From Nitrospinales bacterium (GTDB lineage Bacteria; Nitrospinota_A; UBA7883; JACRGQ01), in assembly GCA_023248535.1 (NCBI GenBank), contig JAHFEJ010000022.1, positions 1 through 41,016 of the forward strand: a stretch of 41,016 bases of DNA. The letters run 5' to 3'. The notes beneath the pieces are model-generated. The model made no database searches, was not told the origin of the DNA, and was given only the letters and a program-made list of their open reading frames with translations. Of the stretch, positions 5,356 to 17,236 are shown piece by piece. A program made the position numbers and the translations under genes. Numbering within the stretch: the first letter of the stretch is position 1; each line of letters begins with the position of its first letter.

Positions 5356-6216
5356 TTGAAGATAGATAAAGACCGGCGGCGGATCACCATCCAGAACATT
5401 CAGGATTTGCCGACGCTTTCAGTGGTTATGGCCAAAATGGTGGAAATGCTGGACAGCCAGGAGGCTTCCCCCAAAGAACTGGCCGACCTGATCGCGGAGG
5501 ACCAGTCGATACTTTCAGCGATCCTTAAGCTGGTGAACTCCGCATTTTACGGCTTTCCCCGCAAAATCACCTCGGCGCACCAGGCAGTGGTGATCCTGGG
5601 ATTCAGCACGGTGAAAAGCATTGCGCTGGGAGCCTCCATCTTCAAGGCGAAGCCGCGCAAGGGGGGGAAAGAGGTATTCGACCGGAGCGGACTATGGGTA
5701 CACTCACTAGGAGTGGCCACCGCCTCAAAACTGATTGCGCAAAAAATCGGCCACGGCGATACCGACGAAGCATTTGTGGCCGGCCTTCTGCATGATGTGG
5801 GCAAAGTGGTGTTCGACACCCAATTTCCCGCCGAGTTTCTCGAAGTGGTGGAAAAGGCCGAAGACGAGAATATCCTGATCCTTGAAGCGGAGCGGGGAAT
5901 CCTGGGCCTGAATCATGCCGAGGCGGGACAAATTCTGCTGTTTAAATGGCAACTGCCGCTGCCGGTGGTGAATGCGGTGGGCTTTCACCATGACCTTGAA
6001 AAAGCCCCCGCCACCTACCTCCGGCTTGCGGCCATCGTGCATTTGGCCGACATCATCTGCCGCAAGCTCAAAATCGGGTCCGGCGGGGACACCCGCATTC
6101 CAAAAGCCGACCGCAACGCCATGAAAACGCTCCATATCACCACGCCGATGCTGGAAGAAGTGCTGAAGGAAACCCGTGCCCAAAAAGAACTGATCGAACT
6201 GTTTAGGGATATCTGA
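5356..6216 (+). CDS. HDOD-domain signalling protein
   Basis: The protein is about 286 residues and almost entirely an HDOD domain, a degenerate relative of HD phosphohydrolases used in bacterial signalling. Seen in sequence: the N-terminal LPTLSVVMAKMVEML segment, LKLVNSAFYG, the VVILGFSTVKSIALG helix typical of HDOD proteins, and an HDVGK motif with downstream histidines that keeps part of the HD metal site. A TTG at 5356 (MKIDKDRRR) sits six bases after AGGAG. GTG at 5353 and TTG at 5317 are alternative starts in the same frame. The stop codon overlaps the kinase start (TGATG), so the two are translationally coupled. Confidence 0.85.
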   Translation: MKIDKDRRRITIQNIQDLPTLSVVMAKMVEMLDSQEASPKELADLIAEDQSILSAILKLVNSAFYGFPRKITSAHQAVVILGFSTVKSIALGASIFKAKPRKGGKEVFDRSGLWVHSLGVATASKLIAQKIGHGDTDEAFVAGLLHDVGKVVFDTQFPAEFLEVVEKAEDENILILEAERGILGLNHAEAGQILLFKWQLPLPVVNAVGFHHDLEKAPATYLRLAAIVHLADIICRKLKIGSGGDTRIPKADRNAMKTLHITTPMLEEVLKETRAQKELIELFRDI

Positions 6217-8087
6217 TGAGCGAAAAAACATCCGGCGTTTCCGCCACCCTGCGGCGCAGATTGGCGGCCGCCGTCCGCGAGCGCACGATGTTCGGCAAAG
6301 CGCTTGCCGAAGCCAACGCCCGCTTCGCCGAAAAGGTAAAGGAACTCTCGCTCCTCCGCCGCATTGGCGATTCCATCAGCAGCAATCTGGACGAACGGGC
6401 CGTCTGCGAAAGCCTGGTGAACATTATCACCTCGGAGATGACGGCTGAAAACTGCTCCGTGATGCTGCTGTCGGATGACGGGGGACACCTGACGCTCCGC
6501 GCCGTCCAGGGACAAACGGACGAGACGCCCCGCTTTTTCGATGCCGGCGATCCCGCGGCCCCCCGCATTCCCATCGGCAAAGGGGTGGCCGGCATGGTGG
6601 CAAAAACGGGCAAACCGATGTTGGTGAAAAATGCCGCTGAGGAGCGGCATTTCAGAAAAATCCCCGGCCGCCTTAAAAATATCAGCTCGCTGCTCTGCAC
6701 TCCGATCGCCGGCGAAAAAGGAACCGTCATCGGGGTGCTGAACCTTTCCCACCCGGACATCGGCCAGTTCTCGCGCGAAAACGAGCGGCTGCTGCGCCTG
6801 ATCGTCAATCATGCGGCGCTGGCGTTCAACAACATCCGGCTTTTCACCCGCATACGCAAATTCAACGAAGAGCTTGAACACGCCGTGACGGAGCGCACCA
6901 AAGAGCTGCGCGACTCCGAAGGCAAATACCGCGCCCTGATGCAGCAGAGTTCCGAGGGGATCGTGATCGCCGGACGTGAAGGGGTGATACGGGAATGCAA
7001 CGGCGCCGCGGGGGCGCTGACCGGCCAAAAACCGGCGGCGTGGGTGGGACGGCATCTTGAAGCGATGATGCCGGATGCCGCGCCAGCCATCCTGAAACAT
7101 TTGGGGAGCGCCGCCCCGAAGCGCCGCGCGCCGGTCGCCGTGGAAACCGTTCTGCGCGCCCCGCGCGGAAAGCGTGAAACGCCGGTCAGTATCGGGGCGA
7201 ACCTCATCGCGCTGGCCGCGGAGCCGGTCATCCACATAACCATGCGGGACATCACCCAGCGCGCCCTGCTGGATGAAAAACTGCGGAACTATTCGCGCAA
7301 TCTCGAAGAAGAGTTCCGGCGGCGCACACGCGAACTCAAAGCGGCGCAAAACGAATTGATCCAGGCCGCGAAACTGGCCGCGCTGGGCGAACTTGCGTCG
7401 GGCGTCGCCCACGAGATCAACAATCCCATCGCCATCATCGCTGGCTACACCGAAGACCTGAAAGACCGCCTCCTCAAGGGGGAATCGCCCGGTATGACAA
7501 CCCTTATCCGCACCCTCAACCTGATCACGGAGAGCGCGCAGCGCGCCCACGCGATCACCCAGGAGATCCTTGACTTTTCCACGCCCCGCGCCACCCGCTT
7601 CGCGGTGTATAATATCCGCGAGTTGCTGGAGACCCCGCTGGCGATGGTGCGGCAGCGGATGAAGAACCTGGGGCTTTCCATCATAGTGAAGGGAAGCGCG
7701 TTAAATAGCAATATCCGTACCGACAAAAGCCATGTCGTGCAGGTGATGATCAACCTGCTGAACAACGCCATCGACGCCTCGCGGAAAAATGACACAATAA
7801 ATGTAACCGCCAACATATGCAACGGGTTGCTGGAAATCACCGTCACCGACAGCGGCGGCGGCATTCCGAAGGAACTCATGGGTAAAATTTTCGATCCCTT
7901 TTTCACGACAAAAGAACCGGGCAAGGGGACGGGCCTGGGACTTTCCATTTCGTACCGCATCGTCCAAAAACTGGGAGGGCACTTAACCGCCGCATCCCGC
8001 CCCGGAAAAACCGCTTTTACCGTGCAATTGCCCTTTGAGGCAGGAACGGCTGCGGATTCGTATATAGGAACCCAAACAAATGGCTGA
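6216..8087 (+). CDS. GAF-PAS sensor histidine kinase, NtrB-like
   Basis: The 623-residue protein has no transmembrane segments, so it should be a soluble sensor. Order of domains: a short coiled region, GAF (about 50-205), a coiled linker, PAS (about 230-345), a second coiled linker, HisKA with the phospho-acceptor His399 in GVAHEINNPIA, then HATPase with the N box (INLLNNAIDAS), G1 box (DSGGGIP) and G2 (GKGTGLGLS). All catalytic boxes are intact. It overlaps the HDOD gene by one base and the response regulator by eight, so the three form one operon and the regulator is its probable partner. The ligand of the GAF and PAS domains is unknown. Confidence 0.92.
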   Translation: MSEKTSGVSATLRRRLAAAVRERTMFGKALAEANARFAEKVKELSLLRRIGDSISSNLDERAVCESLVNIITSEMTAENCSVMLLSDDGGHLTLRAVQGQTDETPRFFDAGDPAAPRIPIGKGVAGMVAKTGKPMLVKNAAEERHFRKIPGRLKNISSLLCTPIAGEKGTVIGVLNLSHPDIGQFSRENERLLRLIVNHAALAFNNIRLFTRIRKFNEELEHAVTERTKELRDSEGKYRALMQQSSEGIVIAGREGVIRECNGAAGALTGQKPAAWVGRHLEAMMPDAAPAILKHLGSAAPKRRAPVAVETVLRAPRGKRETPVSIGANLIALAAEPVIHITMRDITQRALLDEKLRNYSRNLEEEFRRRTRELKAAQNELIQAAKLAALGELASGVAHEINNPIAIIAGYTEDLKDRLLKGESPGMTTLIRTLNLITESAQRAHAITQEILDFSTPRATRFAVYNIRELLETPLAMVRQRMKNLGLSIIVKGSALNSNIRTDKSHVVQVMINLLNNAIDASRKNDTINVTANICNGLLEITVTDSGGGIPKELMGKIFDPFFTTKEPGKGTGLGLSISYRIVQKLGGHLTAASRPGKTAFTVQLPFEAGTAADSYIGTQTNG

Positions 8088-9426
8088 AAAAATAAATCTC
8101 TTGGTAGTGGACGATGAAGGACCCTTTCGCGAGCTGTTGGTGGAGCGCTTCTCCCGGCAGGAATTTACCGTCACCGGCTGCGCCAGCGGGGAAGAGGCTG
8201 TGGCCGCCGCGGCGGCGCAGGAATTTGATGTCGGCGTCATCGACATCCGCATGCCGGGGATGAGCGGCATCGACCTGTTCCGCGCCATCCGTAAAACGCA
8301 ACCCCAGTTCGAAGCCGTGGCGCTTACGGGACAGGCGACCATCGACAACGCCATCGAGGCGATGAAACTGGGCTTTTATGACTATATCGCCAAACCGACG
8401 AAGCTGTACGAGCTGGAAATAATCATCCGCAAAGCCTATGAAAAGAAAATGCTGGCGCTGGAAAACATGCGCCTGAAGGGCCGCATCGGCCTGCATGGCG
8501 TCCACTACGAGATTGTGGGCAAAAGCGGGAAGATGGCTGAAATCCGCGGCACCATCCGCAAGATCGCCGATTCCACCGCGCCAGTGCTCATCACGGGGGA
8601 AACCGGTACCGGCAAGGAATACGCCGCCCGCGCTATCCATCAGGCGGGCATGGCCAAGGACGCCCCCTTCATCCCCGTCAACTGCGGCGCCCTCCCGCAC
8701 GGCATACTGGAAACGCATCTTTTCGGTCACGAGGAAGGGGCCTTCACCGGCGCAGTCGGAAAAAAAGAAGGTTGGCTGGAAATGGCGGCGGACGGGACCA
8801 TCTTCCTGGAAGAGATCGAGGACCTCCATCCCTCCACGCAGGTCAAATTGCACCGCTTCCTCGAATCGGGCAGTTTCCAGCGTGTGGGCGGCAACAGCAA
8901 TATCGGCAGCACCGCACGGGTGATCGCCAGCACCCAGGCCGATCTGCGCGAGTTGACACTTAAGAAGGCGTTCCGCGAAGACCTCTATTACCGCCTGGGC
9001 GTTGTAACGGTCCATATGCCGCCCTTGCGCGAGCGCCGGGAAGACATACCGGAACTGATCACCGCGTTTCTGAATGGAACGGGGAGCGGCAATAAAAAAT
9101 TCAGCGTCAAAGCGGTTAACGCCATGCTGAAATACGACTGGCCGGGCAACCTGCGCGAGTTGCACAATGTGGTGGAGCGGACCGCGCTGCTTGCATCGAA
9201 AAACACCATTCAGGCCAAAGACGTGCCGCTTTCGCTGGATAAGAAATCCAAAGGCGGCAAACTGCGCCACCTGATGTCGCTTGCGGAAGTGGAGAGGGAG
9301 CATATTCTCTACGTTTTGAGCGCCTGCGGCGGCAACATCTCGCGGGCTTCGCGCATCCTGGGGGTCAGCCGCCCCAAGCTTTACCGCAAAATCGGCCAAT
9401 ACAAAAACGGCGGAAAAAAGGACTGA
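8080..9426 (+). CDS. NtrC-family sigma54-dependent response regulator
   Basis: The 448-residue protein has three domains: a receiver with the acidic pair DDE near residue 11 and phospho-acceptor Asp55 (VIDIRMPG), an AAA+ ATPase with Walker A GETGTGKE (about 172) and the sigma54-contact loop GAFTGA (about 220), and a C-terminal Fis-type helix-turn-helix (ISRASRILGVSRPKLYRKI). The intact GAFTGA means it should activate sigma54-RNA polymerase. Phosphorylation by the overlapping upstream kinase is inferred from gene order. I found no convincing -24/-12 sigma54 promoter in the window, so its targets are probably elsewhere. Confidence 0.95.
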   Translation: MAEKINLLVVDDEGPFRELLVERFSRQEFTVTGCASGEEAVAAAAAQEFDVGVIDIRMPGMSGIDLFRAIRKTQPQFEAVALTGQATIDNAIEAMKLGFYDYIAKPTKLYELEIIIRKAYEKKMLALENMRLKGRIGLHGVHYEIVGKSGKMAEIRGTIRKIADSTAPVLITGETGTGKEYAARAIHQAGMAKDAPFIPVNCGALPHGILETHLFGHEEGAFTGAVGKKEGWLEMAADGTIFLEEIEDLHPSTQVKLHRFLESGSFQRVGGNSNIGSTARVIASTQADLRELTLKKAFREDLYYRLGVVTVHMPPLRERREDIPELITAFLNGTGSGNKKFSVKAVNAMLKYDWPGNLRELHNVVERTALLASKNTIQAKDVPLSLDKKSKGGKLRHLMSLAEVEREHILYVLSACGGNISRASRILGVSRPKLYRKIGQYKNGGKKD

Positions 9427-9435
9427 CCGCTTGTT

Positions 9436-9467
9436 CCGCCAGGGGAAAAGACGTCCCTTGGCGGTTT
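9436..9467 (+). terminator. Likely terminator after the HDOD/kinase/regulator operon
   Basis: A 10-bp stem (9436-9445 with 9455-9464, one G-U pair, nine-base loop) begins nine bases after the regulator stop and is followed by only three T residues. The short U-tract makes it a moderate candidate. Its end overlaps the -35 box of the next promoter. Confidence 0.5.
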
Positions 9468-9494
9468 GACTCGCCGCCGGTGCGGCCTTATAGT
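9466..9494 (+). promoter_or_regulatory. sigma70 promoter of the first Cys-rich secreted protein
   Basis: TTGACT (9466-9471) and TATAGT (9489-9494) are separated by exactly 17 bases, a near-consensus promoter. The expected start point, about 9501, is only some three bases before the ATG at 9504, so the transcript may be essentially leaderless. No Shine-Dalgarno sequence is visible. Confidence 0.7.
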
Positions 9495-9503
9495 GGATGA
9501 TCT

Positions 9504-9920
9504 ATGGCGAAATGGATTTTTGCGGCCTTCCCGATTCTGTTGCTTATGCCGCTCTCCGCGATGGCGGTGGAGCACTGTCCCCACGGGCAGAACCCCGGTA
9601 TCCGCCACATGGCGCGCGCCGGATCCGTTGAAAGCGTCCCGGCCGCCAGAACCGCCGCGCCCTGCCCGGATCATTCGAATCAGCCATGCACAATCAACGC
9701 GGGAATGATGCCCAAATGCAGCATGGAAGGGTGCTGTATAAAATCGGACGGCCCGCGCTCCACCGGCCTCAGCAACCGCCCTCCCGCCAACGACGACCAT
9801 GCATTAAGCAGTTCCATCAGCCCGCCCCAAACCGGCGGACGGCTGATCGGCGCCGCTCCCCATTCCTGGTATCCCCCGCGGGACCGGATCGAACCGGCCC
9901 TGCGCCCCCCTGCTGCCTAA
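9504..9920 (+). CDS. Small secreted Cys/His/Met-rich protein, copy A (CCIKS family)
   Basis: The 138-residue product matches no family I recognise. It has a good signal peptide (MAKWIFAAFPILLLMPLSAMA) and a mature N-terminus with a CPH motif. The core reads Cx2H...C...M.KCSMEGCCIKS, followed by a Pro-rich tail ending YPP...RPPAA. The protein at 16702-17181 shares the same three blocks in the same order (C-H-H near the N-terminus, KCGMHGCCIKS core, YPP..RPPSA tail) but little else. That conservation supports this frame being real and argues that the thiol, thioether and imidazole groups matter, most likely for binding a soft metal such as copper(I) in the periplasm. It is the first gene of the plus-strand half of the island. 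Confidence 0.75.
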   Translation: MAKWIFAAFPILLLMPLSAMAVEHCPHGQNPGIRHMARAGSVESVPAARTAAPCPDHSNQPCTINAGMMPKCSMEGCCIKSDGPRSTGLSNRPPANDDHALSSSISPPQTGGRLIGAAPHSWYPPRDRIEPALRPPAA

Positions 9921-10021
9921 CCTCCCCTTTTTAACCGGTTTTTCAAGTAAACCCCCGCCTGAAAGCCCGCATTGCGGAGTTAGGGCGGAACGAAATAACA
10001 ACTTATACGGCAGGAGAATTC

Positions 10022-10459
10022 ATGAACAGACGCGAAATGCTTACCACCGTCGGCGGCATCGCCGCCATAGCCGCGACTTCGGGCATCGCCTTCGCCGCCG
10101 AGAAGGGGCACGAACACCACGCGGCCGCCCCGGCGAACGCCGCGCTGGCAACCGCCGCGTTTGAATGCGTCCGGGTGGCGGAAGCGGGCATACGGCATTG
10201 TCTGGTGGAATTGGGCAAAGGGGACAAATCGCTTGCCGAATGCGCGGCCAAAATGAACGAACTCAAGACCGCCTGCACCGCCCTGGGGCTGCTTTCCTCC
10301 TTTGAATCGGCCCATGCGAAGGCCATGGCCCAGCTCACCATAAAGGTGTGCGAGGACAGCGAAAAGGAATGCCGGAAATTCGACAAACATAAAGAGTGCG
10401 TGGATTGCGCCGAATCGTGCAAGAAATGCATCGAGGAATGCCGCAAGTTCGCCGCATAA
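10022..10459 (+). CDS. Four-helix-bundle copper-storage protein, Tat-exported (Csp1-like)
   Basis: The 145-residue protein begins MNRREMLTTVGGIAAIAATS, a twin-arginine signal ending at AFAAE, so it should be exported folded. A short His-rich linker (GHEHH) follows, then a helical bundle lined with eleven cysteines, many in Cx2C, Cx3C or helical i/i+4 spacing, ending CVDCAESCKKCIEEC. This matches the Csp1 / DUF326 family, in which cysteines inside a four-helix bundle hold many copper(I) ions; Csp1 of methanotrophs is also Tat-exported. The start has a good CAGGAG six bases upstream. The barrel gene follows 86 bases downstream and is probably co-transcribed. Confidence 0.88.
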   Translation: MNRREMLTTVGGIAAIAATSGIAFAAEKGHEHHAAAPANAALATAAFECVRVAEAGIRHCLVELGKGDKSLAECAAKMNELKTACTALGLLSSFESAHAKAMAQLTIKVCEDSEKECRKFDKHKECVDCAESCKKCIEECRKFAA

Positions 10460-10472
10460 CCTTTGAATTGCC

Positions 10473-10506
10473 GCGCGCGTTTCCCAAACAGGGGAGACGT
10501 GCGCGC
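10473..10506 (+). other. GC-rich hairpin between the Csp-like and barrel genes
   Basis: GCGCGC at 10473-10478 pairs with GCGCGC at 10501-10506, and the inner TTCCC/GGGGA segments extend the stem imperfectly. No U-tract follows, so it is more likely an RNA processing or stability element than a terminator. Confidence 0.4.
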
Positions 10507-10545
10507 CACAAACACCTTTAAAAAAACTGTAAGGACAAATAACCA

Positions 10546-11442
10546 ATGAAACGTATCGCCATTCTCGCGCTGGCGCTTATCGCGGCCTATGCCCCGGCAA
10601 GCCATGCCTGCGAATTCTGCACCCTGCATAACGGGCTGGGACAATACAACAACCAGGGGGATTTCGTCAGTCTCACCTACCGCATCACCACCGCATCCAC
10701 CGTCGTTGACGGCGGCTCGGCCGTGCAGCCTTCAACCGGCCAAAAACTGGTCATCAACACCACGCAGCTTTATTATCAACACGCGTTTTCAGACGCGCTG
10801 AAGTTGCAGGTGGTGCTGCCGAATATCCAGAAAACCGCATCGACGAACGGAACCACGAACGACTCGTCCTCCGGTATCGGCGATGCCATCGTAATGGCCC
10901 GCTACGCGTTCTGGGGCGATGACAACCAGTTCGCCGGCGCAATCGTGGGGTTGAAGCTGCCGACGGGAGCGAAGAAAGAAGCCACCGGCACCACCACCTT
11001 TTCACCCGACCTGGCCCTTGGCACCGGCAGCACGGATCCGCTCATCGGGATCGTGTACAACCACAACATCGGCAACTGGAACTACTCCGCCGATGCCCTC
11101 TACAAGATAGCCGGGAAGGGATATGACGGCTATCAGTTCGGCAACGTTCTGAATCTGGGATTAAGCGGCTATTACGGTTTTCATGAATACTTCAACGCCG
11201 GCATCGGGCTGAACGGCGAGATCATGGCGGCGGATAAAGACAACGACGGCACGGTGACCGGAACATCCGGCACGGTGGTCAACACCGGCGGCACCGTATT
11301 CTTCGCCAGTCCGGCCTTGCAATTTACCATGCAGAACTTTTATGCCGAGTTGGCGTACCAGATTCCGGTCTACCGCAATTTCATCGGCACCCAGCTGGTG
11401 GTGGATAACAAGCTTATCGTCAGCGTCAGATACGCGTTCTAG
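10546..11442 (+). CDS. Outer-membrane beta-barrel protein with CEFC N-terminus
   Basis: The 298-residue protein has a signal peptide ending at SHA, and its mature N-terminus immediately shows CEFCTLHNGLG, a CxxC that could bind metal or form a disulfide. The rest is rich in alternating polar/aromatic beta strands and ends ...LIVSVRYAF, with the C-terminal Phe required for BAM recognition of outer-membrane barrels. It resembles the broad 'transporter / MetA-pathway' barrel group of about 300 residues. It follows the copper-storage gene and likely shares its transcript. Transport of metal or of metal complexes is inferred only from that neighbourhood. Confidence 0.75.
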   Translation: MKRIAILALALIAAYAPASHACEFCTLHNGLGQYNNQGDFVSLTYRITTASTVVDGGSAVQPSTGQKLVINTTQLYYQHAFSDALKLQVVLPNIQKTASTNGTTNDSSSGIGDAIVMARYAFWGDDNQFAGAIVGLKLPTGAKKEATGTTTFSPDLALGTGSTDPLIGIVYNHNIGNWNYSADALYKIAGKGYDGYQFGNVLNLGLSGYYGFHEYFNAGIGLNGEIMAADKDNDGTVTGTSGTVVNTGGTVFFASPALQFTMQNFYAELAYQIPVYRNFIGTQLVVDNKLIVSVRYAF

Positions 11443-11465
11443 TTAAACGTTACGCAGCGTACTAT

Positions 11466-11494
11466 CCGTTCCCCGCACTAGCGGCGGGGAACGG
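11466..11494. other. Perfect 11-bp inverted repeat between convergent genes
   Basis: CCGTTCCCCGC (11466-11476) and its complement (11484-11494) flank a seven-base loop, midway between the barrel gene and tonB, which converge here. Transcripts in either direction would form a strong hairpin, but neither has a U-tract after it (AAAAAA follows on the plus strand). It probably marks transcript 3' ends or blocks read-through; a canonical intrinsic terminator is not supported. Confidence 0.6.
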
Positions 11495-11504
11495 AAAAAA
11501 TCAG

Positions 11505-12179
11505 TCAGCTAACCTGGAAATTGAACGGTATCCGCACCTTGACGGCGACCGGCTTTCCCGCCATATATCCCGGCTCGAATTGGCTTTGTTTCAGCGCGGC
11601 TATCACCGCGGCATCGAATTCCTCGCCGCCGCTCTGGGCTATGCGGACGTCGTCCACTCCCCCTTTTTCATTGATAAAAACTTCAACAACCACGCGGGCT
11701 TTCCGTCCCGATCTAAGCGCCGATCTGGGATAGGCCGGTTTTATGTTCGTCCGGAAATACGGAAGGTTCGTTAGCTGATCCGTCTCCTGATATGCGGGCG
11801 CGGCGGGAAGGCTATCCATCTGCGGCGCGGGGGGCACATTTTGAGCCACCGTTTCGGGGGCCGGGGCGACATCCGGTTGCGGCGCCGGGGACGGGGCTTC
11901 CTCCTTTGTTTGCACCGGTTCCGGTGTTACAGGGATTGGTGGCGGTTTGGGTAGAGCCGCGGCCTTTGGGAGCGGCGCCGGTGCGCGCTCCATTACCGGG
12001 GTGTGGGAAACAGGTTGCGCCCTGCGCGCCACCATCGGCGCTTCCCGAAGCCGGAATAGCTCCGTCGGCACATACTCCTTTTTAGCGCCCAGCGCCCACG
12101 CGGCGCAAGCGAACACCGCGCAGTGAACCGCCAGTGAAACGGCGGCGGCCGGGAACCAGCCGGCATTTACTTTCTTCAT
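11505..12179 (-). CDS. tonB: TonB family energy transducer
   Basis: The chosen ATG (12179) gives 224 residues and lies five bases after GGAGG; upstream in-frame ATGs at 12182 and 12191 are alternatives. The protein has an N-terminal membrane anchor (AAAVSLAVHCAVFACAAWAL), a long Pro-rich spacer of P-A-P repeats that would span the periplasm, and a C-terminal TonB domain (NIKPAYPRSALRSGRKARVVVEVFI cut short here as YPRSALRSG...GGVDDVRIAQSGGEEFDAAVI) ending IPFNFQVS. It couples the proton-motive force, with ExbB and ExbD, to the outer-membrane receptor. Being in one operon with a receptor, it is probably dedicated to it. Confidence 0.93.
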   Translation of the reverse strand: MKKVNAGWFPAAAVSLAVHCAVFACAAWALGAKKEYVPTELFRLREAPMVARRAQPVSHTPVMERAPAPLPKAAALPKPPPIPVTPEPVQTKEEAPSPAPQPDVAPAPETVAQNVPPAPQMDSLPAAPAYQETDQLTNLPYFRTNIKPAYPRSALRSGRKARVVVEVFINEKGGVDDVRIAQSGGEEFDAAVIAALKQSQFEPGYMAGKPVAVKVRIPFNFQVS

Positions 12180-12195
12180 CATTTCCTCCATCCCC

Positions 12196-12600
12196 TCAAA
12201 CAGGATTCTTGGGCCGGGTAATGATATCGATATTGTGTATCCCCCGTCCCCTGAGAGCGTCTATGACGCCCATAAAATCGCCGTGACGGCAGTTCTCGTC
12301 CGCTCCCAATACCACTTCCGCTTCGGGGGACAGGCTTTGAACCGCTTTTTCCAACTCTTCCCGCGATACCTTCCGCTGGTCGATGTACATCGCCCCCCCG
12401 CCATCGATGTTAATGACTGTTTTCGGCTTTGTCTGATCCGGCGCAACGGCGCTGGAGGCCTCGGGAAACGTCATCTCTATGAGCTTCAGGTTCAGGAACG
12501 TGGTGCTGGTAATGAAAAAAATGAGGAGGATCAGCACGAGGTCTATCAGGTTCACCGGGGCCATCTCGATATGGAACTCGGGCCTTCTCCTGCGCCTCAC
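12196..12600 (-). CDS. exbD: ExbD/TolR family biopolymer transport protein
   Basis: The 134-residue protein has an Arg-rich N-terminus (MRRRRRPEFH), a single membrane helix containing the essential aspartate (VNLIDLVLILLIFF, Asp near residue 20) and a periplasmic domain with the ExbD fold. It supplies the proton-conducting element of the ExbB-ExbD motor. Its start overlaps the exbB stop by four bases and its stop lies just before tonB, giving the order exbB-exbD-tonB. The short length and intact Asp are typical of the family. Confidence 0.93.
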   Translation of the reverse strand: MRRRRRPEFHIEMAPVNLIDLVLILLIFFITSTTFLNLKLIEMTFPEASSAVAPDQTKPKTVINIDGGGAMYIDQRKVSREELEKAVQSLSPEAEVVLGADENCRHGDFMGVIDALRGRGIHNIDIITRPKNPV

Positions 12601-13190
12601 GGTTTTTCCCCCTGTGTCCGCGAGTCAACATTCCCCAGAAGGCGGTAAAGCTTTTCCTCCACCGCGAGGGAAACTTTCGAAGCGTGCACCTCGAACGATT
12701 TGTAAGCCACCATGGCCGGAATCGCCACCACCAGCCCGCCAACCGTATCCAGCAACACCTCTTTGATGCCGTGAGCCACGGTTTTGGGGTCGGTCAACCC
12801 CAAAGACGAAACCCCTTCGAATACATGGAAGACCCCGATGAATGTGCCGATAAGCCCTATCATCGGCGCAAGCGTGGCGATGAGGCCCAAAATGGTCACC
12901 CGTTCCATCAGCTTCCCGTCGAGTACGCCGAGCTTGGTCTGGATGAACGGTTCCCGCGAGCTGCCGTTGTCGTATGCCGCTATCTCGCCAAATACCTTCT
13001 TGATGATCCCTTCCGGCAGTTGTCCCGTTTGATCCAGCCCTGTGATCCGGTCGAGCGCCCGCAACTCCCGCCCGATTTTCCTAAACTCGGCGATTTTTGC
13101 CACCATAACCGTTATCGAGCCAACGCTGATGGCCATCAGCAGCCTCATGCAGTAATCGCTGTGGGCGATAAACTCCATCATGTATTGCAT
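12597..13190 (-). CDS. exbB: ExbB/TolQ family proton channel protein
   Basis: The 197-residue protein has three membrane helices: one near residues 12-32, and two in the conserved C-terminal MotA/TolQ/ExbB domain (VTILGLIATLAPMIGLIGT and TVGGLVVAIPAMVAY). ExbB forms the pentameric channel around ExbD that energises TonB. The ATG at 13190 follows AAAGAGG. It begins 25 bases after the BNR-protein stop codon and overlaps exbD by four bases, so it is translated from the receptor operon. Confidence 0.93.
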   Translation of the reverse strand: MQYMMEFIAHSDYCMRLLMAISVGSITVMVAKIAEFRKIGRELRALDRITGLDQTGQLPEGIIKKVFGEIAAYDNGSSREPFIQTKLGVLDGKLMERVTILGLIATLAPMIGLIGTFIGVFHVFEGVSSLGLTDPKTVAHGIKEVLLDTVGGLVVAIPAMVAYKSFEVHASKVSLAVEEKLYRLLGNVDSRTQGEKP

Positions 13191-13215
13191 AAAACCTCTT
13201 TCCGCGCCCCCGCTA

Positions 13216-14448
13216 TCACCGGGCCATGCGCATTAACGAGCGGGCATTCCGCATCTCATCCTTGGACCACGCCACCGCCACCGCGCCGGCCGCGTTCGTA
13301 ATGACCACCGGTGAGGAAGATCTCCGCACTCCATCGCTCAAGCGCCGCGCCGCCGGGGCGGACGCCGCCTTGAACATGATGTGTCCGAAAACAGGGGTCA
13401 CTTCCTCCCACGCCAGATAAACCTTGCCGCCAGCCACCGCGAGAGCCGGATGGTCCGGGAAAAACCCGGCGGTGGTGACAACTTCTTCCTTCGTGAAGGT
13501 CACGCCGCGGTCTTGCGACACGGCGTAATAGATGGCCGGTTTTCCGCCCCCTTCCGAATACCAGATGATGTGCAGTTTGCCGGCGGCATCCACGCCAAGT
13601 CCCGCCCCGCGGTGGGGGCAGCCGGCGATGACCCACTTATCGTTGCCTACTATGGCGGGGAGGCTGAATGTTTTGCCGCCATCGCGCGACGAAGCGGCCA
13701 CCATCTCCCTCACATCGTTTGCAAAGACCTTGCGCCACGCGGCGTAGATCGTGCCATCCGGGGCGACGGCCAACGCGGTGCGGCAACAGGGGCAGGAATT
13801 GCCGTCTATCTTCACGTTCGGCGAGAAGCTTTTGCCGCCATCGCGCGAAACGGCGAAGTATGTCGCCGATCCGGCGGTCGCCTTTTCCCGCCCATCGAGC
13901 CACGCAAGATAAATGGAGCCATCGGGTCCCACCGCCATCGACTCAAACCCGGCGGATGCGGGCTGCGGCGAATCGCTCACTTTCATGGAGGGGGAAAAGG
14001 TTTTGCCTCCGTCAGGCGAACGGCTGAATCTAAGCTCCGCCGCAAACGGCGCCCCCGCGCGGGGCGTTGTCCACGCCACGTAAAGTTCGCCTTTTGCCCC
14101 GATGGCAAGCATGGGGGAACCATGTATGCCGGCCGGCTCATCGCTTCCGCCATTCACCAATACGGGAGCCGGGAAATCTTTTCCATCCGCGGATGCGGCA
14201 ATGTAAAGGAGGTTGCGGTCCTTTTCTTCTTCAAACCATGCCATGTAAACCGCGCCCTTCGCGTCCATCGCCATCGCGGGGGTGGAAACCCCCTTTGAGG
14301 GATGCGTTATGCCGGCGATTTCCGAGAATTCCATCTCCCTGGAGGTCTCGGCAGACCAGCCCGGAGCGGCGCAAGCGAGTATCAGGATGGAGGCCGCCAG
14401 CGCGGCGGCCCCCATTTTAGTTATCCCAAACATGGTTGCGCTTCTCAT
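13216..14448 (-). CDS. Exported BNR/sialidase-fold beta-propeller with CPCC motif
   Basis: The 410-residue protein has a signal peptide (cleavage likely near GWSAE; the ILAC within it could also be a weak lipobox). It then carries repeated Asp-box units of the S.DGGKTF type (DGGKTFS several times) and repeating AVxPDGxIYxAW strands, which predict a six-bladed propeller. Proteins like this are often labelled exo-alpha-sialidase, but I see no sialidase active-site set. The notable feature is a CPCCR motif in a loop between blades plus a later GCPHRG, which together could make a thiol/His metal site. Its start overlaps the receptor stop (ATGA), so the two are coupled. A periplasmic or surface metal-binding partner of the receptor is my inference. 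Confidence 0.8.
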   Translation of the reverse strand: MRSATMFGITKMGAAALAASILILACAAPGWSAETSREMEFSEIAGITHPSKGVSTPAMAMDAKGAVYMAWFEEEKDRNLLYIAASADGKDFPAPVLVNGGSDEPAGIHGSPMLAIGAKGELYVAWTTPRAGAPFAAELRFSRSPDGGKTFSPSMKVSDSPQPASAGFESMAVGPDGSIYLAWLDGREKATAGSATYFAVSRDGGKSFSPNVKIDGNSCPCCRTALAVAPDGTIYAAWRKVFANDVREMVAASSRDGGKTFSLPAIVGNDKWVIAGCPHRGAGLGVDAAGKLHIIWYSEGGGKPAIYYAVSQDRGVTFTKEEVVTTAGFFPDHPALAVAGGKVYLAWEEVTPVFGHIMFKAASAPAARRLSDGVRRSSSPVVITNAAGAVAVAWSKDEMRNARSLMRMAR

Positions 14449-16580
14449 TTGAAGCGGTATTCCACGCCCGCCGAGAACGTGCGCGGCATGCCGGGGGCGA
14501 ACTGTTCGCCCGACGCGGCGGTGTAGGCCGACAACATGGCGTAGCGCTGGTCTGTCACGTTGGCGATGCGGCCAAAGAACTCCAGGTTGTCGCCAGCCTT
14601 GTAGGAAGCCCGAAGGTGGAACAGGTCGTGCCCGGGGTATTTGTGGGTGTTGTCATCATCCATCCAATAGCTGCCGAGACGCTCCCATTCGGCTTCAACA
14701 CGGCCGCCGTGGAGCGCCGCTGGACGCCAGTTAAACCGCACGTTGCCGATCTCGTTCGGGGCGGATGCCTGTTCTTTGCCGTCGTAGGTCACGCCGGTTT
14801 TCGGGCTCCAGTTCCCGTAGGTGTGCTTGGCGTAGGAATAGGCGATCTCCATTCCCACGGTTTCGGTCAAACGGGTGGTGATCCCCGTTTCGACGCCGCG
14901 ATGCAGCGTTTCGCCGGCATTGAGCGTTTCGCGGGTATTGTCCGTGGTGTTGGTGTAGCTGACGATGTCGTCTTTTTTCGTCATGTTGTAAACGGAGATT
15001 TCCCAGCCAAAACCCTCCCCCACCTCGCCGCGCAGGCCGAGGTCGTAGCTATCGACTTTGACCGGCATAAGGTTGACCGTGCTGACCGCCTGCCCTTGGC
15101 GGAAAAGCTGCCCTTCGGAAGGGGCGCGGAACGCGTGGCGGTACGAAAAAAAACCGTTCAGCGAATCTGCGAAGCGGTAGGTGAGGCCCGCCTTCGGGCT
15201 TAAATGCGTGAAGCTGACGTTTGTGCTGCCGGGGCGCAGGTGTTTGTTGTCGACGGCCGGGCCGGTAAGGTTATCGTTGTAGTTGTATCCCATGTTGTCG
15301 TAACGCAGCCCAACGTTCAGGCGCAGGTTATCCGTGGGGGAAAGCTCCGTATGCACATAGGGGGATATTCCCTGATAGGTAACCTTGTAATCATACGTCT
15401 TCACGCCAAGGGTGTATGCGGTATAGATGCTTCCGGTCTTGGTGGTCGTCAGTTTATCCTCGTCATAGCGGCCGGGACTGTAATCGACGTCCGCTCCCAC
15501 GATAATGCGTGTCCGCAAAGACTCCAAATCGACGCGGTATTTCGCCTGCGCGCCAAGCGAGTTGTTGGCGGTGGTGTAGCGCTGGGCGTCATAGGAGAGC
15601 GACCAGTTTGGCAGAATATCCATGCTGTTCGACCGCACGTAAGGGGTGATGCTGACCAGCGTATTGCCCGATTCTTTTTCGTACGCGGAGGAAAGGCGGA
15701 TCGCCTGAACCTTCCGGTAGGAGATCGGCGTGTAGTTGGTGGTGGGGCTGTTCTGGTAATCGGCAGCCGAAATTTGCGAAGTGCCGGCGGTCTGCTGATC
15801 GATACCCGAATAGGTGGCCACCGTTTTGAACTGCGAGCCGCTTTCGGTTTCCGCATCCCAGCGGAAAGTGCCGGCCTGGCGGTCGAACTTGGTCGAGTCG
15901 CGCCAGCCGTCGGTGTGGGTCGAATTCAGATTGACGCCAAGGCCGTGGGCGCCCGCCGATACCAGCCCGCGCCGGAAACCGAAGCCACCCATCTCCAATG
16001 TCAGATCCAGCTCCGGGTCAACCGGCGCGGGGCGGGTGAGCACGTTCACGGTGCCGCCTATCGCGTCGCTTCCGTACAGCGCGGTGCCAGGCCCCTTGAC
16101 CACTTCGATGCCGCCCGATTGCGGGATGTTCACTTCATACAAAGCATTGTGATTGAAAAACCCGGTGGAGCGGGTCGGAATGCCGTCTTCCAGAAAGAGA
16201 TACACCGGGCTGGTGGTCATCGGCTGGCGGATGGATGTCATATGCCCTTCGCCGCCGGTCACGTTCACATACACGCCGGGCACGCGTCCCATGATTTCCG
16301 CGGGATGCTGCGGGCGCACTTCCTGCACTTCCTTTTCCTTCACGCCGCCGACCGCCAACGGCGTCTCCGCCTTGGTTTCCTTTTCGCGCGTGCCGGTAAC
16401 GACGACATCTTCAAGAACCAACGCCGGGCCTTTGTGTTTTTCCTGTTCCGCCGCCGGGACCGCCGGTTTTTCCACAACCGCTGGCGCCTCTGCCGCCGTT
16501 TCTTCCGCAAATGCGGGTATCGCCATCGCCGCGCAAAGGGCGGCGCTCAATATCAGTTTTTCAAAAAATCTTCTGTGCAT
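14445..16580 (-). CDS. TonB-dependent outer-membrane receptor
   Basis: The 711-residue protein has a signal peptide (cleavage after IPAFA), an acidic/Pro-Ala linker, a TonB box around EDVVVTGTRE, a plug domain (VKGPGTALYGSDAIGGTVNV is the conserved plug end) and a 22-strand-type barrel ending AGVEYRFK. The ATG follows GAGGAATT. The substrate cannot be read from sequence. The plug includes GHMTSIRQPMTTS and FFNHNALYE, which offer Met and His side chains but no Cys. Operon mates are a Cys-rich secreted protein, a CPCC propeller and a private ExbB-ExbD-TonB, so a copper or copper-complex receptor is the leading guess; a siderophore or other chelate remains possible. Confidence 0.92.
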   Translation of the reverse strand: MHRRFFEKLILSAALCAAMAIPAFAEETAAEAPAVVEKPAVPAAEQEKHKGPALVLEDVVVTGTREKETKAETPLAVGGVKEKEVQEVRPQHPAEIMGRVPGVYVNVTGGEGHMTSIRQPMTTSPVYLFLEDGIPTRSTGFFNHNALYEVNIPQSGGIEVVKGPGTALYGSDAIGGTVNVLTRPAPVDPELDLTLEMGGFGFRRGLVSAGAHGLGVNLNSTHTDGWRDSTKFDRQAGTFRWDAETESGSQFKTVATYSGIDQQTAGTSQISAADYQNSPTTNYTPISYRKVQAIRLSSAYEKESGNTLVSITPYVRSNSMDILPNWSLSYDAQRYTTANNSLGAQAKYRVDLESLRTRIIVGADVDYSPGRYDEDKLTTTKTGSIYTAYTLGVKTYDYKVTYQGISPYVHTELSPTDNLRLNVGLRYDNMGYNYNDNLTGPAVDNKHLRPGSTNVSFTHLSPKAGLTYRFADSLNGFFSYRHAFRAPSEGQLFRQGQAVSTVNLMPVKVDSYDLGLRGEVGEGFGWEISVYNMTKKDDIVSYTNTTDNTRETLNAGETLHRGVETGITTRLTETVGMEIAYSYAKHTYGNWSPKTGVTYDGKEQASAPNEIGNVRFNWRPAALHGGRVEAEWERLGSYWMDDDNTHKYPGHDLFHLRASYKAGDNLEFFGRIANVTDQRYAMLSAYTAASGEQFAPGMPRTFSAGVEYRFK

Positions 16581-16701
16581 AATTCCTCAAGATGTATAAA
16601 ACATGCCTAAAATCCCACTGTTGACGCCTCATGGGCCGTCTTGCGCGGAACCCGCGCGTAAAAGGCGTACCTTGGACGTTACTTAAGGCCGATTGAGAAA
16701 A

Positions 16702-17181
16702 TCAGGCGGAAGGAGGACGTGGAACAGGCGGGTAATAGTTGGAAATGGTTTCGAGGAGATAAGGGGAGACAGGCCCCTTTAGGGAAAACGGATTAAGCCC
16801 CTCATGGACGTCAATCGCCATTTCGGGGGAAACTTTGGGTGAGAATCCGCTGTCAGCAGCAGGCAATTCGCTTTTTATGCAGCAGCCATGCATGCCGCAT
16901 TTCATGAGGGCGCGTTGCGAAGAACACGAATGAGTGACACCAGGATGGAAGGCACAGGCCTCTTTCATGTTGTGGGCTTCGGTTGTAGATACAGGCGCGG
17001 TTTGGGGAACCTCTTCCATACCACCGGAAAGAGCCGTGGAATGTTTGTGACCAGCGTGATGCCCCTCGTCAATTGCGTCCGCGCCAGCCACGATGGTTTC
17101 CGCGTGGTGACAGGATTCCGCCGCCCAGGCAAATCCCGGCAGCAGAAAGGCAACCGCAAACGCCATGAACAGTTTGAACAC
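16702..17181 (-). CDS. Small secreted Cys/His/Met-rich protein, copy B (CCIKS family)
   Basis: A GTG at 17181 lies five bases after GGAGG and gives 159 residues with an ideal signal peptide (FKLFMAFAVAFLLPGFAWA). An in-frame ATG at 17193 is the alternative. The mature part opens ESCHH, then has a His-rich stretch (GHHAGHKH), a Cx2H...C...KCGMHGCCIKS core and a tail ending YYPPVPRPPSA. The same blocks occur in the protein at 9504-9920, so the two are diverged paralogues that begin the two oppositely oriented halves of the island. It is first in the operon with the receptor, 121 bases upstream of it. Metal binding is inferred from composition; I know no named family for it. Confidence 0.78.
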   Translation of the reverse strand: MFKLFMAFAVAFLLPGFAWAAESCHHAETIVAGADAIDEGHHAGHKHSTALSGGMEEVPQTAPVSTTEAHNMKEACAFHPGVTHSCSSQRALMKCGMHGCCIKSELPAADSGFSPKVSPEMAIDVHEGLNPFSLKGPVSPYLLETISNYYPPVPRPPSA

Positions 17182-17236
17182 CCGCTCCTCCATTACCTTT
17201 ACAGGGAAGGCCCCCGCCTATTTTCACTTAAAGCGC

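Follow-up and report, generated by a model that had tools for sequence, protein, structure and literature searches.

Here we describe two small exported proteins, A and B, encoded in a 41,016-nucleotide stretch of a Nitrospinales bacterium genome (assembly GCA_023248535.1, contig JAHFEJ010000022.1, positions 1 to 41,016; below, the window), each with a Cys-rich CCIKS core and each standing first in an operon of metal-type genes. By analogy with characterised copper leader peptides we propose, with a probability of roughly 0.77, that their open reading frames (ORFs) are regulatory leaders, and that A and B would sense metal, most likely copper, as nascent chains during export. The proposal of a pausing sensor comes from the fixed spacing between core and tail, the terminal RPP, a predicted hairpin that pairs with the next Shine-Dalgarno (SD) sequence, the constant place in front of metal-type genes and the absence of any confidently predicted fold, which together match leaders of the CutF and CruR type. 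CutF of Rhodobacter capsulatus is exported co-translationally and senses copper through a Cys motif, and it has a proline-rich end and controls a stem-loop hiding the next SD (PMC9973294). CruR of Bordetella pertussis heads a TonB-receptor operon and requires its CXXC motif, its C-terminal RAPP and the spacing of the two (PMC9426467); arrest at RAPP has been demonstrated in vitro (PMC12992588).

Blocks, spacing and stop-region pairing

Both ORFs were confirmed where the original prediction had placed them (Table 1), with an alternative ATG start possible for B at 17193. A BlastP match between A and B (E-value 4e-10, 30% identity) supports their common ancestry, and on this similarity they are diverged paralogues; the three blocks that they had been said to share are real in the alignment. 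The accompanying claim that the proteins have diverged in length between the blocks holds for the N-terminal spacer only, as the distance from the CC of the core to the PP of the tail is 57 residues in A and 55 in B. Overlooked at that stage were a conserved E[EST][VI]P block N-terminal to the Cys core and how exactly the terminal -PxPRPPxA-stop is kept.

In an alignment of 16 core members of the family (A2), the order of blocks is a signal peptide (judged by eye from an aligned hydrophobic segment and an AxA site), a variable and often His-rich stretch, E[EST][VI]P, CPxHxGxxC, KCxMxGCCIKx, a linker, and the terminal -PxPRPPxA. The CC-to-PP distance is 55–58 residues in 16 of 16 (standard deviation 0.9, versus 8.8 for the length of the N-terminal spacer), and the linker has the lowest identity of all segments, 19%. 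By manual count the distance is ~54–58 in the remote members G013, G017b, G021 and G012 (G numbers denote genomes), and it is 52–53 in G005 and G009. The PP lies two residues from the C-terminal end in all core members except the G003 orthologue of A, whose ORF runs on, and the tail codons differ at synonymous sites, which argues that the peptide is under selection. Only family members carried RPP or HPP in their last six residues among 250 proteins from stretches of the window's own genome, and a scan of that whole genome (2.87 Mb in 132 contigs, 98% complete) returned 11 RPPxA-stop DNA matches, the exported-type ORFs among them being the three family genes only. AlphaFold2 gave no confident fold for A2 (mean predicted local distance difference test score 52, predicted template modelling score 0.13), which is weak evidence given an alignment of only 16 sequences.

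The idea that selectively conserved Cys, His and Met residues point to soft metals is supported by these residues themselves and by a steady association with copper and metal genes, and CCIKS proteins would accordingly be candidate metal binders. We also observed that cleavage at the AxA site would give roughly half of the members an X-X-His start (VEH, AEH, MEH, MTH, HTH, QEH or NGH), an N-terminal Cu(II)/Ni(II) motif; it is seen at window positions 9567–9575 and at L034, L035, L038, L029, L039, L066 and C97, in a His-rich region where it may arise by chance.

The regions between leader and next gene are 97–219 nucleotides long, mostly 97–148. Bases at or just past the leader stop are predicted to pair with the downstream SD, closing a long hairpin with a GC-rich inner stem; examples of the paired segments are TTCCTCAA/TTGAGGAA in the B group, AATCCTCTTT/AAAGAGGATT in G017 and GATCTTCCC/GGGGGAGATC in G008a, with the start codons of the downstream genes being themselves predictions. 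For A, 5.3 stop-region:SD pairs are expected, versus 1.1 in shuffled sequences. At least four such pairs are expected in 17 of 18 members versus none of 43 control gene pairs, drawn from ~0.37 Mb of own-genome stretches (Mann-Whitney 1e-9; related members are not independent of each other, and with one member per unlike locus the value is 2e-7). On average the stop region of a leader matches its own SD more closely than the SDs of other members (permutation P = 0.017 when a fixed post-stop region was used; P = 0.0007 with the stop codon included, an inclusion chosen after the folds were seen), and neither window leader is top-ranked for its own SD. Taken alone, covariation within the B group is too slight to be informative. 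Neither of the two intergenic regions in the window showed an intrinsic terminator, and an Rfam scan of the window returned a tRNA only.

A proposed sensor acting during export, and its alternatives

In the mechanism that we propose, the signal peptide would target the growing chain to the Sec translocon. The CCIKS cluster would lie 55–58 residues behind a ribosome that has reached the terminal RPP codons, approximately the length of ribosome tunnel plus channel, and would thereby be exposed to periplasmic metal. Translation would pause at RPP, two sense codons ahead of the stop, for a time altered by metal binding, and the paused ribosome would cover the stop-codon bases otherwise paired with the next gene's SD, so that the hairpin would open and the next gene be translated: Csp1 and the barrel behind A, the TonB receptor and Ton motor behind B. 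Metal would prolong the pause at A (the sign of CutF), inducing storage, and shorten it at B (the sign of CruR), shutting uptake. In this scheme the pause itself, the binding of a metal, its identity as copper and the direction of each response are putative. More tentatively, and we consider it doubtful, the locus may hold a duplicated sensor serving opposite sides of copper balance, with A driving storage at high periplasmic copper and B driving uptake at low; small changes in the nascent chain would then set the sign, the ribosome and hairpin switch staying unchanged.

Several observations weigh against a nascent-chain copper sensor. The G003 orthologue of A (L030:4570-5190) has no stop codon and extends 46 residues beyond RPPA, either through real decay or through an assembly error. 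The family tail is PRPP, which differs from the proven RAPP/RGPP, and the proline tail of CutF did not cause arrest when tested in a LepB construct (PMC9973294). Stop-region pairing is weak in G007b, and the remote members G017b and G021 lack SD pairing at the likely start codon; of the four remote members that were tested at a later stage, the other two, G012 and G013, show it. The leaders on C97 and in G007a precede a small CxxC protein of unknown function, and those of G003-C5 and G002-C233 precede a protein without a Pfam match. Finally, copper as the metal is proposed from the neighbouring genes only.

The missing pairing in two remote members would be accommodated if the nascent chain acted through transcription, by Rho-dependent termination in the intergenic region, with the hairpin secondary. 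CruR acts so ahead of a TonB receptor, with an intergenic region of 162 bases (PMC9426467), and the regions here are of 97–148 bases in most cases; such a model, however, has no need for SD pairing in 17 of 18 members with partner-specific complementarity, and we consider it unlikely. It is likewise improbable, in our estimate, that the same leader-peptide mechanism responds to another soft metal or to thiol redox state. CutF-like families include types beside nickel/cobalt genes (PMC9973294), the TonB receptor behind B is unmatched by a copper-receptor model, and Cys clusters with thioredoxin-type neighbours could report on thiols, but the Csp1-type store directly after A, the YtkA-type neighbours and the Cys/Met-rich ligands favour copper. 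Very improbable is a free periplasmic or secreted metallopeptide or metallochaperone, essentially the original prediction, in which the finished protein would bind copper and pass it to Csp, barrel or receptor: its Cys, His and Met residues are conserved, it is exported and adjoins metal genes, and about half of the members could have X-X-His at the mature N-terminus, but this role leaves unexplained a linker of fixed length and free sequence, an RPP beside the stop and an SD-pairing RNA, no fold is predicted, and CutF was first read likewise (PMC8456105) and later shown to be co-translational (PMC9973294). The fixed distance to an invariant PP, the gene position, the hairpin and the absence of a predicted fold fit a co-translational regulator much better, and the CCIKS family is of greater interest in a regulatory role than as a metallopeptide.

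Neighbouring genes and distribution of the family

The operon arrangement first described was upheld: A stands ahead of genes for a Csp1-type copper storage protein and a PF13557 barrel, and B ahead of those for a TonB-dependent receptor, a BNR-repeat protein, ExbB, ExbD and TonB (Table 1). A profile scan of the receptor gave no match to a copper-receptor model. The two Cys motifs of the BNR-repeat protein also occur in G008, and the protein may be a partner of the receptor that binds metal.

Table 1. Leaders, predicted RNA elements and downstream genes in the window
Feature	Position	Strand	Description or evidence
Leader ORF A	9504..9920	+	138 residues; signal peptide, CPDHSNQPC, KCSMEGCCIKS core, tail LRPPAA-stop
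Leader ORF B	16702..17181	-	159 residues from GTG; signal peptide, KCGMHGCCIKS core, tail VPRPPSA-stop
RPPAA-stop, proposed pause site of leader A	9903..9920	+	RPPxA-stop genome scan and tail comparison
Predicted hairpin, stop of A to csp start	9918..10024	+	9922-9927 pairs with SD 10009-10016
Predicted hairpin, stop of B to receptor start	16578..16704	-	16700-16693 (TTTCTCAA) pairs with SD 16590-16583 (TTGAGGAA)
Csp1-type four-helix copper storage protein	10022..10459	+	Twin-arginine leader; TIGR04401, 126.6 bits (cut-off 100)
Outer-membrane barrel	10546..11442	+	Begins CEFCTLHNGLGQYN after signal peptide; PF13557
TonB	11505..12191	-	PF03544
ExbD	12196..12600	-	Best matches ExbD/TolR models, under their cut-offs
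ExbB	12597..13190	-	Best matches TolQ/ExbB models, under their cut-offs
BNR-repeat exported protein	13216..14448	-	CPCC and GCPHRG motifs; Pfam scan and sequence
TonB-dependent receptor	14445..16580	-	PF00593 and PF07715

Sigma-70-like promoters lie close 5' of each leader (9466–9494, plus strand, 10/12; 17265–17237, minus strand, 9/12), that of A being placed to yield an almost leaderless mRNA. Also close 5' of leader A are a histidine kinase and an NtrC-type regulator (6216–9426, plus strand); this pair is kept in G001 and swapped for unrelated genes in G003, and is thus probably outside the module.

A profile search of the window's own genome recovered A and B (E-values 7e-41 and 9e-45, respectively) and a third copy on contig C97 (C97:13336-13818; core HCKMTGGCCIKG, tail SPIPRPPSA); a weak match at C19 was set aside as chance. 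Profile searches identified homologs in 11 further genomes, all of the same class of this Nitrospinota-like lineage: G001–G003 in the same genus, G005, G007, G008 and G009 in the same family, and G012, G013, G017 and G021 in the same class. The G012 member scored an E-value of 0.002 only, yet keeps the core, the spacing and an LDPRPPSL tail. No convincing profile match was obtained in any other sampled genome, a match in G331 having been rejected because it looks to be a NosL-type protein. Pfam and NCBIfam scans gave no family match, even at an E-value of 10 for 16 members, which bears out the view that the family is undescribed, and a search of solved structures gave chance-level matches only. 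Membership of DUF2946 (PF11162) was rejected: the best member scored an E-value of 4, the profile-profile probability against four DUF2946 proteins was 3%, and at an E-value of 0.001 the DUF2946 profile found none of the three own-genome copies.

A profile search of the kind that had been suggested as a check on co-occurrence found homologs mostly directly upstream of Csp1, CEFC/CCGG barrel, TonB-receptor or YtkA genes. Csp1 and a CEFC barrel lie directly 3' of the leader for A and in G001 and G008; in G003, Csp1 follows leader A and the barrel gene is missing from that locus. The receptor, BNR protein, ExbB, ExbD and TonB follow the leader for B and in G001 and G003, and in G002 up to the contig end. 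A TonB receptor lies directly 3' of the leader on G008 contig C51 and G017 contig C42, and a barrel does so in G005, G007, G009 and G013. In G002, G003 and G017 the leader is followed by a YtkA-type lipoprotein and then a CCGGG barrel, with thioredoxin-type proteins too in G002 and G003, and in G021 the only gene checked 3' of the leader encodes a YtkA-type lipoprotein. Combined, two contigs of G008 suggest the order leader, Csp, barrel, receptor, BNR, ExbB, ExbD, TonB, leader. The small CxxC protein after the C97 and G007 leaders (~56 residues, MCGKRAYRDRLSAM... CxxC ... WHLTS) is conserved between both genomes (L008:623-1711; L032:287-1015).

Other small Cys-rich exported-type ORFs with PP ends were seen (DHPPESLS and SPPPEMDHLV at L126 and L129; YHPPKA and YHPPRP at L076 and L079), those at L126 and L129 lying just 5' of PF13557-type barrel homologs in other lineages, and the leader switch may extend beyond the CCIKS family.

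Comparison with known leader peptides

To our knowledge, copper-sensing leader peptides comprise few experimental cases, all in Pseudomonadota. With the CCIKS family, this type of sensing would reach a further lineage, copper storage and a locus that has two paralogous sensors, and the family offers a clean, testable geometry in its fixed 55–58 residue arm, its terminal RPP and the predicted pairing between stop region and next start signal. Such a reading would also correct the natural habit of annotating proteins of this kind as metallochaperones.

Like the arrest peptides of RAPP/RGPP and SecM type (PMC12992588, PMC10951233), the CCIKS proteins are small and exported, with a proline arrest-type motif near the C-terminus, and have TonB-receptor, copper or thioredoxin-type genes downstream; their PRPP[SAL]A, however, lies outside the surveyed RAPP/RGPP set, and their arrest is proposed from sequence.

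CruR shares with the family an exported first ORF, metal-type genes behind it that often include one for a TonB receptor, a Cys motif and C-terminal PP at conserved spacing, and poor structure, its authors likewise having obtained no confident fold (PMC9426467). The family differs in its lack of a DUF2946 (PF11162) profile match, in C-x4-CC instead of CXXC and PRPP instead of RAPP, in a CC-to-PP distance of 55–58 residues versus 48 from C93 to P141 in CruR, and in a predicted SD-hiding hairpin versus Rho termination.

No sequence similarity to CutF was shown, the family having C-x4-CC and a Cys/His block in place of CxxxC, a PxPRPPxA tail in place of PEPEGPPPRL, and Csp1, barrels and TonB receptors downstream instead of a multicopper oxidase. 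With a family length of 136–164 residues, some members exceed the CutF-like filter of fewer than 150 (A falls under it and B over), and some may already sit uncommented in the CutF-like lists of PMC9973294. Two further rules of that set (PMC9973294), a PP among the final 15 residues and an N-terminal signal peptide, describe the CCIKS proteins, and the likeness to CutF (PMC9973294, PMC8456105) covers a small Sec-exported first ORF, a central Cys motif, a proline-rich extreme C-terminus, an intergenic stem-loop over the downstream SD (predicted here) and copper-type downstream genes. The CCIKS family is therefore probably the CutF/CruR-type switch anatomy in a new sequence family.

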